NCBI RefSeq assembly: GCF_029223865.1
Contig: NZ_CP119520.1
Coordinates: 2,294,001 to 2,358,000 of the forward strand
Reading direction: 5' to 3'
Length of the DNA stretch: 64,000 nt
Origin: Telluria mixta
GTDB lineage: Bacteria > Pseudomonadota > Gammaproteobacteria > Burkholderiales > Burkholderiaceae_D
Shown: one piece after another, positions 45,107 to 47,937 of the stretch
Layout of the letters: every line of letters begins with the position of its first letter
Position numbering within the stretch: position 1 is the first letter of the stretch
The notes under the pieces: generated by a model
Database searches by the model: none
The model's input: only the letters and a program-made list of their open reading frames with translations
What the model was told of the DNA's origin: nothing
Position numbers and translations under genes: made by a program

Positions 45107-45144
45107 GTGTTCAGGCTACGCTGTCACTACGAAACGAAGGTGAC

Positions 45145-45714
45145 ATGATGAACACGCAAATCCTGGCACTCGATATTGCAGGGAACCCGTTCGACTGGAT
45201 TGCGCCGGAGGACGCCATCCTGTACTACGCGCTCGGCAAAGTGGCCTGGGAACTGGGCGGCCGCGAATTCGTTTTCCGCGGCGGCTATTCCCGTGCGGGC
45301 GTGCAGTCGAAAATCGCCGTCAAGCCGATCATTGCCATCGCCGGCAGCGAAATCATGACGCGCATGTTCAGGACCGGCCTGCCGCTGACGCACCAGAACG
45401 ACCTGCTCTTCAAACGCGACCGCTATACCTGCGCCTATTGCGGCAATCGCTTCGCGCACAAGGAACTGTCGCGCGACCATATCCTGCCGAGGTCGCGCGG
45501 CGGCAAGGATACGTGGATGAATTGCGTGACCGCCTGCAAGCGCTGTAACCAGGAAAAGGGCAATCTGCTGGTCGAGCAATTCCGGCCGCTGATTTATGTG
45601 CCGTATGTGCCGTGTCGCGCGGAGCATTATCTGCTGAGCGGGCGGAATATCCTTGCGGATCAGCATGACTATCTGACGGCGCAGTTACCCAAGCACAGCC
45701 GGTTATTGAATTGA
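45145..45714 (+). CDS. HNH endonuclease
   Basis: The 189-residue protein carries the zinc-bound HNH fold: CAYCGNRF, LSRDHILPRSRGGKDTW and NCVTACKRCNQEKGN, that is two CxxC pairs with the DH and N/K residues of the catalytic strand. The N-terminal 90 residues have no recognisable domain. Adjacent ATGs at 45145 and 45148 share the AAGG upstream; either may be used. It resembles stand-alone HNH proteins of uncertain role; no methylase or toxin partner is adjacent. Confidence 0.88.
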   Translation: MMNTQILALDIAGNPFDWIAPEDAILYYALGKVAWELGGREFVFRGGYSRAGVQSKIAVKPIIAIAGSEIMTRMFRTGLPLTHQNDLLFKRDRYTCAYCGNRFAHKELSRDHILPRSRGGKDTWMNCVTACKRCNQEKGNLLVEQFRPLIYVPYVPCRAEHYLLSGRNILADQHDYLTAQLPKHSRLLN

Positions 45715-45754: not shown

Positions 45755-45784
45755 TTGACAGGCAAGATCGAGGTAACGCAGAAT
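45755..45784 (+). promoter_or_regulatory. sigma70-type promoter for the rtcB leader
   Basis: TTGACA at 45755-45760 (perfect -35) is followed after 18 bases by CAGAAT at 45779-45784 (4/6 match to -10). Predicted transcription start is near 45791, about 220 bases before rtcB. Confidence 0.6.
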
Positions 45785-45820
45785 CGCACCTCATCGCTTC
45801 GATCAACCCATTTCTCAAGA

Positions 45821-45927
45821 AAGGAACGGCAATGCCACGTACGGCTATCGACAACACGCAAGACAGATAGCCCCGAGCACCGAGCTCGGGGCCAGGCACT
45901 TATGCCTCCTCGAGCCGGCCGTTCCTT
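45821..45927 (+). ncRNA. candidate structured leader RNA upstream of rtcB
   Basis: Several nested stems can form. P1 is AAGGAACGGC (45821-45830) with GCCGTTCCTT (45918-45927). P2 is GGCTATC (45843-45849) with GATAGCC (45866-45872). P3 is CCCCGAGC (45871-45878) with GCTCGGGG (45884-45891). P4 is AGGCA (45894-45898) with TGCCT (45903-45907). A terminator hairpin follows. P1 would hide the ribosome-binding site of a 12-codon ORF. I do not recognise it as a known riboswitch or sRNA class. Confidence 0.55.
45832..45870 (+). CDS. putative 12-residue leader peptide
   Basis: The ORF MPRTAIDNTQDR starts seven bases after AAGGA and ends exactly one base before the P3 hairpin. Position, ribosome-binding site and the following mutually exclusive hairpins are those of an attenuation leader peptide. 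No run of one amino acid points to a particular tRNA. Existence of the peptide is inferred. Confidence 0.4.
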   Translation: MPRTAIDNTQDR

Positions 45928-45932
45928 CAGAG

Positions 45933-45961
45933 CCCCGGCGAGGACACTCGCCGGGGTTTTT
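45933..45961 (+). terminator. rho-independent terminator in the rtcB leader
   Basis: The perfect 10-base stem CCCCGGCGAG / CTCGCCGGGG has a GACA loop and is followed by TTTTT. Lying after the leader and before rtcB, it could cap a small RNA or attenuate rtcB. Its 5' arm can instead pair with the 3' arm of P3 (45887-45892 with 45932-45937). Confidence 0.9.
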
Positions 45962-46009
45962 GCTTTTCAGAGCAAGAACGCCGGCATGACGAATCTTTTA
46001 GGACAAGTT

Positions 46010-47218
46010 ATGCCCATCGTACAAACACTGCACAAGGGACGTGTCCCGGTGCACATCTATACGGACGACATCGACCACGCGGCGCTGCAGCAATTGCTGA
46101 ACATCGCCAAGCTGCCGATCGTCCATCCGCACGTCGCGGCGATGCCCGACGTGCACGCTGGTGTCGGCGCGACCGTCGGCAGCGTGATCCCGACGCAGTC
46201 CGCGATCATTCCCGCCGCCGTTGGTGTCGACATCGGCTGCGGCATGAATGCCGTGCGCACGACGCTTACGGCGAGCCAGTTGCCGGATGGCCTGGCCCGC
46301 CTGCGCAGCGCCATCGAAGCGGCCGTGCCGGTCGGCTTCGGGCAGCATGCCTGGGACAAGGTGCGTGGTTCGGCCCATGCCCGCGTCGGACGGCCGCTCA
46401 ATGACCGGCTGGATGTCATCGTCGGCAAGCACGGCGGCATCATGAAGATGCAGCAGAAGTTTGCACAGACGTGGATCTGCCAGTTGGGCACGCTCGGCGG
46501 CGGCAATCACTTCATCGAGATCTGTCTCGACGAAGAACAGCGCGTCTGGATCATGCTGCACTCCGGTTCGCGCGGCATCGGCAACGTCATCGGCCGCTAT
46601 TTCATCGCGGCGGCGCGCAAGGACATGCAGCGTCACCAGATCCATCTGCCGGACAAGGACCTGTCCTATTTCAGCGAGGGATCGACGCTGTTCGACGACT
46701 ACATCGAAGCTGTCGAGTGGGCGCAGGATTACGCGCTCATCAACCGCCGCGAAATGATGCGCCGGGTCGTCGACGTGCTTGCACAGCATGTCCCGCCGTT
46801 CAAGCTCGATGGCGAAGCGATCAATTGCCACCACAACTATGTGGCACGCGAATCGCACGGCGGCGAGCGCCTGTTCGTCACGCGCAAGGGCGCGATCTCG
46901 GCGCGTGAAGGCGAGCTCGGCATCATCCCCGGCAGCATGGGCGCGAAGAGCTACATCGTGCGCGGCAAGGGTAATCCGGAATCGTTCTGCTCATGCTCGC
47001 ACGGCGCGGGACGCCACATGAGCCGCAGCGAGGCCAAGCGCAAGTTCGACCGTTTCGACCTGGCGGCGCAGACGGAAGGCATCGAATGCCGCAAGGACGG
47101 TGGCGTGGTCGACGAGATTCCGGCGGCCTACAAGGACATCGACAAGGTCATGGCGCATCAGACGGATCTGGTCGAGGTCGTGCAAACGCTGCGCCAGGTG
47201 GTGTGCATCAAGGGGTAA
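46010..47218 (+). CDS. rtcB: RNA-splicing ligase RtcB
   Basis: The GTP- and Mn-dependent ligase joins RNA 2',3'-cyclic phosphate or 3'-phosphate ends to 5'-OH ends. The 402-residue product carries the metal/guanylylation motifs PHVAAMPDVHAGVGATVGSV, AAVGVDIGCGMNAVRTTL, LGTLGGGNHFIEI, HSGSRGIGN and FCSCSHGAGRHMSRSEAK, the last with the His that becomes guanylylated. The start at 46010 follows AGGA by seven bases and matches the usual RtcB N-terminus; 45986 is an in-frame alternative. No rtcA or sigma54-type RtcR regulator is adjacent; control may be by the leader. Confidence 0.96.
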   Translation: MPIVQTLHKGRVPVHIYTDDIDHAALQQLLNIAKLPIVHPHVAAMPDVHAGVGATVGSVIPTQSAIIPAAVGVDIGCGMNAVRTTLTASQLPDGLARLRSAIEAAVPVGFGQHAWDKVRGSAHARVGRPLNDRLDVIVGKHGGIMKMQQKFAQTWICQLGTLGGGNHFIEICLDEEQRVWIMLHSGSRGIGNVIGRYFIAAARKDMQRHQIHLPDKDLSYFSEGSTLFDDYIEAVEWAQDYALINRREMMRRVVDVLAQHVPPFKLDGEAINCHHNYVARESHGGERLFVTRKGAISAREGELGIIPGSMGAKSYIVRGKGNPESFCSCSHGAGRHMSRSEAKRKFDRFDLAAQTEGIECRKDGGVVDEIPAAYKDIDKVMAHQTDLVEVVQTLRQVVCIKG

Positions 47219-47221
47219 GAC

Positions 47222-47383
47222 ATGAAGATCAAATCGATCAAGCCGCGTAATCCGCATGCGGTCGCGGCTAAACAGCGCAATGCGGGTGCGCATGGGGCGT
47301 ATCAGGCGGGGCGCAGGCAGCGTCGTACGGAGAAGCAGGCGCTGCGCGCATGGGTCATCGACGAATATAGAAAAGAAGAATGA
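47222..47383 (+). CDS. 53-residue basic protein
   Basis: The ATG is three bases after the rtcB stop, and the TGA overlaps the ATG of the NADAR gene, so the three genes form one unit. The product is strongly basic (about 16 Lys/Arg), with KIKSIKPRNPHAVAAKQRNA followed by a Gly/Gln/Arg-rich stretch, which suggests RNA binding. Family not recognised. Codon use and tight spacing support it as real. Confidence 0.65.
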   Translation: MKIKSIKPRNPHAVAAKQRNAGAHGAYQAGRRQRRTEKQALRAWVIDEYRKEE

Positions 47384-47937
47384 GGTATCTGATGGACGAC
47401 ACGCAATTTCTCGAAGATTTACGCCGAAGACACCTTGCTGGCGAGGCATTGAAGTATCTCTTTTTCTGGGGACACCAACCAGGAAAGGCAGGCATTACCT
47501 CGTCCTGTTTTAGTCAGTGGTACGAGGCACCGTTCGTGATAGATGGGCAGCGCTACGCCACGGCCGAGCATTACATGATGGCAGAAAAGGCGGTGCTGTT
47601 CGGTGATCCCTCGGCACGAGTACGTGTACTGCAAGCTCCTACGCCAGGTGCGGCGAAAGCGCTAGGCCGAAGCGTATCTGGATTTGATGAGGCAGTCTGG
47701 GTCGAACATCGCTTTTCGATTGTCGTTCGGGCCAATCAGGCCAAGTTCACGCAAAATCCGGAGCTTGGCATTTTTCTGAAACAGAGCGGGGCACGCATTC
47801 TCGTCGAAGCGAGTCCGGTCGATAGCATCTGGGGCATCGGTCTTGCTCAAGATGATGAGAGAGCGAAGAACCCGAGCCAGTGGTTGGGTTTGAATCTCCT
47901 TGGTTTCGCACTGATGGAGATTCGAAATGGCCTCTAG
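47380..47937 (+). CDS. NADAR-domain protein (YbiA/RibX-like)
   Basis: The 185-residue product matches the NADAR fold: FFWGHQPGKAGITSSCFSQW, TAEHYMMAEKAVLFGD, KALGRSV and a C-terminal NPSQWLGLNLLGFALMEIR. Family members hydrolyse N-glycosidic bonds of riboflavin intermediates (YbiA) or remove ADP-ribose from guanine in DNA. Which applies here is unclear. The start overlaps the stop of the small basic gene. Its base composition is lower in GC than its neighbours, consistent with acquisition. A bidirectional terminator separates it from gyrB. Confidence 0.88.
   Translation: MRYLMDDTQFLEDLRRRHLAGEALKYLFFWGHQPGKAGITSSCFSQWYEAPFVIDGQRYATAEHYMMAEKAVLFGDPSARVRVLQAPTPGAAKALGRSVSGFDEAVWVEHRFSIVVRANQAKFTQNPELGIFLKQSGARILVEASPVDSIWGIGLAQDDERAKNPSQWLGLNLLGFALMEIRNGL

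Follow-up and report, generated by a model that had tools for sequence, protein, structure and literature searches.

How bacteria that lack the activator RtcR might decide when to make the RNA ligase RtcB is a question raised by a stretch of 64,000 nucleotides, here called the window, from Telluria mixta, whose genome consists of one contig of 7.44 Mb. In the window, rtcB stands behind what an earlier note, made from the letters without database searches, described as a promoter, a short open reading frame, a set of stems, and an intrinsic terminator, a description that as a whole was confirmed. The same note took RtcR to be absent, and a search for PF06956 bears this out, giving no match in the genome with a positive control in E. 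coli. The analysis presented here indicates that the leader is probably a ribosome-mediated transcription attenuator governing an operon of rtcB, a gene for a small basic protein and, in this genome, also a gene for a NADAR-domain protein, and that it likely works as a leader-peptide attenuator does.

The rtcB gene (46010-47218, forward strand) encodes a canonical RNA ligase of 402 amino acids (PF01139, E = 1.3e-131), with a score under the cut-off of the PrfH-linked subfamily TIGR03073 (145.8 of 271.8 bits). Its nearest relatives, among the best 80 of 578 confirmed RtcB matches, come from Telluria and Massilia. Three nucleotides past its stop codon begins an unannotated gene (47222-47383, forward strand) for a basic protein of 53 amino acids, MKIKSIKPRNPHAVAAKQRNAGAHGAYQAGRRQRRTEKQALRAWVIDEYRKEE, that has no match in Pfam or NCBIfam. 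A search for homologues gave 51 proteins, the window's own among them, and no functional name is attached to any; 15 relatives picked by hand share residues G22, H24, and R34 without exception. Relatives of the gene were located by motif behind rtcB at 34 of 80 loci, including those of Marinobacter (L101 and L103), and at 6 of 22 further loci, counts that exclude apparently false matches (L049, L087, L094, and L097 of the 80; L126 of the 22), and the proteins found range from 46 to 90 amino acids. The next gene (47380-47937, forward strand) encodes the NADAR-domain protein (PF08719, E = 3.1e-50; TIGR02464). Its first ATG overlaps the stop codon of the small basic gene, and it therefore probably belongs to the same operon. 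Directly upstream of the leader lies a gene for an HNH endonuclease (45139-45711), whose domain scores on the IscB and Cas9 models, far under their cut-offs.

At 45755-45784 (forward strand), where a promoter had been proposed, there is indeed a sigma70-type sequence, TTGACA and CAGAAT separated by 18 nt, with a predicted start near 45791. In the single sequence of the window such a motif is at chance level (1 found, 1.0 expected). A promoter-like site scoring at least 9/12 precedes the mini-ORF in 27 of the 31 leaders that make up the window's group, as compared to 30 of 930 shuffles. The window's group refers here and below to the leaders assigned to Oxalobacteraceae by genus name, together making an alignment of 31 rows, two of which are MAGs named only Burkholderiales (L042 and L048). 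At the other end of the leader, the terminator (45931-45961, forward strand) consists of a 5' arm, D5' (45931-45942), a 3' arm, D3' (45947-45958), and a run of T, in agreement with the 45933-45961 given earlier; a wider scan sets the limits of its stem at 45929-45960, and it is kept in all 31 rows of the alignment. No Rfam family matches the window at its gathering score. The best match below threshold, sodF_sRNA, reaches 24.2 of 46 bits, and it was dropped along with STnc310, the His leader, and three more, all of them far under their cut-offs.

Between promoter and terminator lies a mini-ORF of 12 codons, MPRTAIDNTQDR (45832-45870, forward strand), which ends in TAG and has AAAGGA upstream as its ribosome-binding site, the ORF lying just where the earlier note had it. 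The in-frame stop falls in one aligned column in 31 of 31 rows. All five indel patterns within the mini-ORF are multiples of 3 (3, 3, 12, 3, and 3 nt) and 3 of 21 after its stop are, patterns that were counted on one alignment against the window's row and are not proven to be independent events. From the sequence, I infer that the mini-ORF is translated. What it encodes differs from order to order (MPRTAIDNTQDR, MFEQAGSKYDH, MPADNLKETTR, MSQLKQVSSN), and its length ranges from 9 to 18 codons across 38 leaders. In the same 38 there is no conserved run of codons for a single amino acid, the commonest residue accounting for 11.1%; two or three adjacent Asn codons appear in some leaders (for example L038) and are not kept between orders. 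An attenuator specific for an amino acid, of the his, trp, or leu type, was rejected for want of such a conserved run. The last sense codon encodes Arg in 21 of the 38 leaders, the codon and stop often being CGC-TGA outside the window's group and AGA-TAG within it; this terminal Arg codon could serve RNA pairing or a tRNA-Arg signal.

The leader RNA is strongly folded, surpassing 200 of 200 dinucleotide shuffles both without the terminator (45815-45935, z = -5.6) and with it (45790-45963, z = -7.0). Two stems, both on the forward strand, engage the mini-ORF. P1, proposed earlier and found to be a perfect stem of 10 bp, joins 45821-45830, which holds the ribosome-binding site of the mini-ORF, to 45918-45927. 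P2 (45843-45872) joins GGCUAUC (45843-45849) to GAUAGCC (45866-45872), taking in the stop codon along with the first bases of segment A. Segment A (45870-45878), which overlaps the stop codon and extends beyond it, pairs with segment B (45884-45892). This is the hairpin the earlier note called P3; the stem exists, and its first base is still the final one of the stop codon rather than the next base along. That note missed P2 inside the mini-ORF, as well as a second partner for B, namely the pairing of 45884-45891 with 45908-45915. The latter is part of segment C (45908-45918), and C can pair either with B or with the 5' arm of the terminator, CCUCG-AG-CCGG matching CCGGCGAGG at 45935-45943. 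Segments A, B, and C are all on the forward strand.

Covariation in the 31-row alignment was scored over P1, P2, B:C, P4, and the terminator together. The score is 0.173; shuffles give 0.116, none of 500 reaching the observed value, and sliding the structure along the alignment gives at most 0.095. Pairs changed on both sides number 10, as against 6.5 in shuffles, with 1 shuffle of 500 reaching 10; further pair types, at 32 against 29.6, are not extreme in number (46 of 500 shuffles). In P2, for example, the pair 45848/45867 is U-A in 15 rows, G-C in 8, A-U in 4, G-U in 3, and something else in 1 (n = 31). Changes on both sides fall in P1 (both arms), P2, P4, and the terminator, and none fall in B:C, because segments A, B, C, and D5' hardly vary within the group. 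The covariation therefore backs P1, P2, and P4, not the switch.

The computed pairings form a chain of competitors, A:B, B:C, C:D5', and D5':D3', overlapped by the mini-ORF, from which the following mechanism may be proposed. RNA polymerase would start constitutively at 45755-45784. Once at the stop of the mini-ORF, a ribosome would cover A, leaving B to pair with C and the terminator to form. With no ribosome at all, P1 and P2 would hold the ribosome-binding site and A, B would again pair with C, and transcription would terminate. A ribosome halted on the start codon or soon after it, on the other hand, would cover P1 together with the 5' arm of P2, and A would be free to pair with B; C, now released, would take the 5' arm of the terminator, and polymerase would enter the operon. 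The signal would be an early arrest of translation from any cause: a drug that targets the ribosome, damaged rRNA, or a damaged or missing tRNA. RtcB is known to repair RNA damage of this kind, resealing broken rRNA and tRNA.

To compute the pairings, the RNA as far as the terminator loop was folded, a stretch the size of a ribosome being barred from pairing, in seven ribosome states and with five footprint sizes. In the full RNA the terminator is present in the lowest-energy fold of each ribosome state inspected, and the folding is at equilibrium on a shortened RNA, so a kinetic decision is assumed. With a ribosome on the start codon of the window's mini-ORF, the probability of A:B is 0.89-1.00 and that of C:D5' 0.80-0.81 over the five footprints. 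With no ribosome, B:C stands at 0.81 and C:D5' at 0.00, and when the A site is occupied by the stop codon, the values are 0.89 for B:C and 0.00 for C:D5', the 5' arm not being held. Codon 3 acts like the start, and the results for start, codon 3, and stop are stable over the five footprints. At codons 5, 7, and 9, C:D5' lies anywhere from 0.00 to 0.81 depending on the footprint assumed. In the model, then, the range of effective stalls would narrow to the start and codon 3.

The same behavior was sought in other leaders by means of a switch score. From the degree to which the 5' arm is held with a ribosome at the start, this score subtracts the value with the RNA free or that with a ribosome at the stop, whichever is larger. 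Over the 31 leaders of the window's group the mean is 0.58, against 0.02 for shuffles, of which 3 of 465 score as high. The score exceeds 0.2 in 30 of these 31 leaders and in all three from Steroidobacter, in 2 of 4 from Marinobacter and Alloalcanivorax, in 6 of 15 others, in 1 of 11 from Rhodocyclales, and in 1 of 8 of the long Azoarcus/Zoogloea type. Only the difference between ribosome states is informative: taken alone, the raw value for the held 5' arm with a ribosome at the start tells nothing (0.56 against 0.48 in shuffles, 72 leaders). As a computed model, the ribosome-gated switch is well supported in the window's group. For Rhodocyclales, support extends only to the competition among A, B, and C, the C:D5' step not being seen there.

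The chain itself was assessed by comparing pairing energies within and between lineages, 38 of which were hand-picked from the 72 leaders. A and B from the same lineage pair with -18.4 kcal/mol, as compared to -14.7 kcal/mol across lineages (z = -7.8, 0 of 5000 permutations), and when the window's group is left out, z is still -7.6 (30 lineages). B:C gives z = -5.4 (0 of 5000, 38 lineages). C:D5' gives z = -3.7 (1 of 5000, 38 lineages), which weakens to z = -2.0 (99 of 5000) once the window's group is removed. The ribosome-binding site is matched to the last 30 nt before the terminator (z = -5.0, 0 of 5000, 38 lineages); with downstream RNA it gives z = -4.2 overall and z = -1.6 (291 of 5000) outside the group, and with A nothing (z = -0.3). 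The P2 region gives z = -3.0 (12 of 5000). Among the controls paired with B, the interior of the mini-ORF gives z = 0.3 and the 5' UTR z = 1.4. The sequence after the terminator gives z = -2.1 (102 of 5000), and effects of that size are therefore not trustworthy. C:D5' is the weakest link of the chain.

The distribution of the leader was assessed over 80 GTDB rtcB loci, the best 80 of the 578 confirmed. An automatic scan sought a ribosome-binding site, mini-ORF, and terminator upstream of rtcB. It found mini-ORF and terminator at 66 of the 80 loci and in 7 of 790 shuffled upstream regions, and in none of 22 upstream regions of the paralogue type with 56-61% identity; over all upstream regions the count was 72 of 113, the remainder including many distant paralogues. 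Of the 14 loci missed by the scan, 5 have an ORF and terminator recognizable by eye (L062, L068, L081, L085, and L105), leaving 9 of 80 with no such leader by scan or eye, one of which (L099) offers only 21 nt of upstream DNA. A paralogous rtcB in the T. mixta genome itself (G000 C1:1812822), adjoined by a frame that I take to be rtcA-like, has no such leader by eye in 420 nt upstream. The leaders extend over Oxalobacteraceae, Rhodocyclales, Chitinimonas, Chitiniphilus, Steroidobacter, a Methylococcaceae MAG, Marinobacter, and Alloalcanivorax, with the frame, start, and ribosome-binding site of the ORF preserved over these large distances. Conservation of the stems and mini-ORF in relatives, which had been put forward in advance as a check, is thus what was found.

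In six relatives (L006, L061, L065, L075, L082, and L085) the end of the terminator and the start of rtcB are separated by 19-23 nt. That is too short for a promoter, unless one overlaps the terminator, and rtcB in these six is therefore probably transcribed by read-through. Some loci depart from the common arrangement. Steroidobacter gossypii (L062) has three similar terminator-like repeats in tandem between mini-ORF and rtcB. Three betaproteobacterial MAGs (L098, L107, and L110) have other repeats (CTCACCGGAGC and GCTCCGTCTGC) 5' of rtcB, and in two of the three a different short ORF is present as well; no terminator was found near rtcB at these loci, which possibly have a different type of leader.

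A covariance model of the leader, run with stricter filters on 195 genomes of the family, matched 49 of them, with 32 matches of at least 60 bits in 29 genomes. (Two matches below 40 bits were inspected, L219 and L220, and in these only a terminator-like hairpin was matched.) Taking the best strong leader of each of the 29 genomes, 17 precede rtcB and 12 have no rtcB in the following 1.5 kb (L186, L187, L190, L191, L192, L195, L201, L202, L203, L206, L211, and L212). The division rests on tblastn with RtcB, which matched 17 of 30 loci. RtcB motifs were then sought at the remaining 13, and the sequence was read at all of these except L214, a weak match. No intact RtcB above 58% identity was found in the 12 whole genomes, of which six have a paralogue at 56-58% and one (G744) has a piece of 31 residues beside the leader. 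By pattern, pieces of rtcB can be recognized at five of the 12 loci (L186, L187, L191, L192, and L211). A small basic gene lies about 25-180 nt behind the leader at all 12, and all 12 leaders have switch scores above 0.2. I infer that this rtcB was lost, with leader and small gene retained, in 12 of the 29 strongly matching genomes, and that the loss probably happened more than once. Behind the small gene of three of these loci (L191, at 217-1239 on the minus strand, L187, and L190) there is a protein family of 340-410 amino acids that has 484 homologues, no Pfam match, and no assigned function.

In three genomes (G825, G739, and G845) the leader occurs a second time, at a distance of 3.2-5.4 kb and directly 5' of a gene for a GNAT acetyltransferase, as judged by a family search made on the G845 copy only. 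These second leaders (L215, 4392-4543 in a reversed locus; L216, 4646-4800; L217, 6890-7045) show the same predicted switching as the first. With a second copy before a GNAT gene and a leader that stays after rtcB is gone, the leader behaves as a portable regulator.

The earlier note reached a different wiring: a ribosome at the leader stop would mask A, B would pair with the 5' arm of the terminator, and rtcB would be on when the mini-ORF is fully translated. Its central idea, a terminator ahead of rtcB that is gated by translation of a leader ORF, is supported. The complementarity it relied upon, CGGGGC at 45887-45892 with GCCCCG at 45932-45937, is present in the sequence, but the pairing has a probability of 0.00 in all seven ribosome states and with all five footprints, since C is transcribed ahead of D5' and is the better partner for B. 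In the model it is C (45908-45918), not 45887-45892, that holds the 5' arm, and the polarity is reversed, a ribosome at the leader stop leading to termination and an early-held one to read-through. The polarity reported for armZ is likewise opposite to that reading (PMC13041342), and the wiring is very improbable. A protein antiterminator, Rho, or pausing might instead overcome the terminator of a conserved leader, the mini-ORF serving only to keep the RNA open. This would fit with the fact that the C:D5' switch is not seen in Rhodocyclales or the long Azoarcus type and with peptide sequences that differ between orders; it would not account for an ORF whose frame, start, and ribosome-binding site are preserved over large distances, nor for an A:B pairing at the stop codon that is lineage-specific even with the window's group set aside (30 lineages, z = -7.6). 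I consider it unlikely.

It might also be supposed that the leader is chiefly an autonomous small RNA of about 165-170 nt, possibly coding for a peptide, with its place before rtcB incidental or secondary. It has its own promoter and terminator and a strong fold, and 12 of 29 strong leader loci lack rtcB in the next 1.5 kb. Those 12 loci, however, are the ones where the small basic gene lies directly behind the leader in every case, with a piece of rtcB between in five, so the leader still fronts an operon, and a reading of the 12 as orphan small RNAs was dropped on these grounds. Against an autonomous RNA stand also the complementarity centred on the mini-ORF stop, lineage-specific on average, the absence of any Rfam match at gathering score, and the absence from the genome of a Ro60/TROVE protein (PF05731, 0 matches, control positive), all of which make it a quite unlikely account. 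YrlA, a bacterial Y RNA, adjoins rtcB in Salmonella; identity of the leader with a Y RNA was rejected, since there is neither a TROVE protein nor a gathering-score Rfam match.

Returning to the ribosome-mediated attenuator, I would give about even chances to a broader interpretation: that in Beta- and Gammaproteobacteria a portable attenuator that senses ribosome stalls drives an operon for translation repair, consisting of canonical RtcB and the small basic protein; that the small protein, kept after loss of rtcB, is itself a factor in translation stress; that the leader was copied before a GNAT acetyltransferase; and that it arose apart from, or parallel to, PA5471.1-armZ, so that the watching of a mini-ORF evolved for two RtcB subfamilies. 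A leader through which early ribosome arrest leads to transcription of rtcB would close a loop from damage to repair with no regulatory protein, and canonical RtcB would share its control logic with its cousin ArmZ. The small conserved gene, which lacks a family model and travels with the leader past the loss of rtcB, would be a lead to a translation-stress protein, and the leader itself can be taken as a naturally occurring reporter for the arrest of translation.

The earlier note held that such a leader would be new. This has to be qualified, since leader-peptide attenuation in the RtcB family has been published for armZ (PA5471), an RtcB-like gene of P. aeruginosa with the leader peptide PA5471.1 (PMC13041342, PMC12057347). 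I found no report in the open-licence literature of attenuation of a canonical rtcB, PMC12057347 mentioning RtcB only in connection with ArmZ. In the published account of armZ, full translation of PA5471.1 leads to termination and stalling to expression, with stalling at codons Q3 and F4 in a cca mutant and expression also from an amber codon 3 (PMC13041342). As described there, that system and the window's have in common a short leader ORF, a terminator, an RtcB-like gene downstream (PF01139 in the window), and, as the window is modelled, the same polarity. They differ in that ArmZ adjoins prfH and is an anti-repressor of MexZ, whereas the window's RtcB is canonical and its operon partners are the small basic protein and NADAR, and in that a figure legend gives segments 3 and 4 as the terminator, whereas the window's chain has five segments. 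The window's RtcB shares 27-31% identity with four PrfH-linked proteins (L149, L151, L153, and L154) and with two similar ones (L150 and L155), and no prfH over cut-off was found in its genome. Membership of the window's leader in the armZ attenuator is not established, and the gene it precedes is not PrfH-linked.

Mini-ORFs can also be made out by eye before PrfH-linked genes. Of ten loci carrying PrfH in the order of Marinobacter, eight have one (L175-L180, L182, and L184), that of L175 and L176, upstream of the PrfH-linked operon, reading MQALITLCRSRLA. By eye as well, a ribosome-binding site and mini-ORF can be seen 5' of PrfH-linked or similar RtcB2 genes at L151, L154, and L155. In the RtcB2 leaders (these three, L175-L180, and L182) the downstream structure differs, a comparison made by eye and without a control. 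L184 is a mixed case, with an RtcB of canonical type (by eye), an adjoining prfH over cut-off, and the mini-ORF MFLNLTLLSSHQAN upstream.

Other systems resemble the leader in part. The toiL uORF of topAI-yjhQ in E. coli responds to ribosome-targeting drugs of several classes according to where on it the ribosome has stalled, but its output is translation with Rho-dependent termination rather than an intrinsic terminator, and it serves other genes (PMC12121999). The ribosome-mediated attenuators found with ABCF resistance genes, vmlR of Bacillus subtilis among them, also place a uORF and transcription attenuation 5' of a gene for translation stress; they are Gram-positive and control other genes, and the likeness is one of description, not sequence. 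E. coli rtcBA concerns the same enzyme family and is induced when the RNA of translation is damaged, through sigma54 and RtcR, a CARF-domain activator that reportedly senses RNA ends with 2',3'-phosphate (PMC12606134), whereas the window has a sigma70-like promoter and no RtcR. Set beside these systems, what appears to be new is the canonical RtcB as target, the wiring in five segments, the breadth of distribution, the small protein as partner, and the second target.
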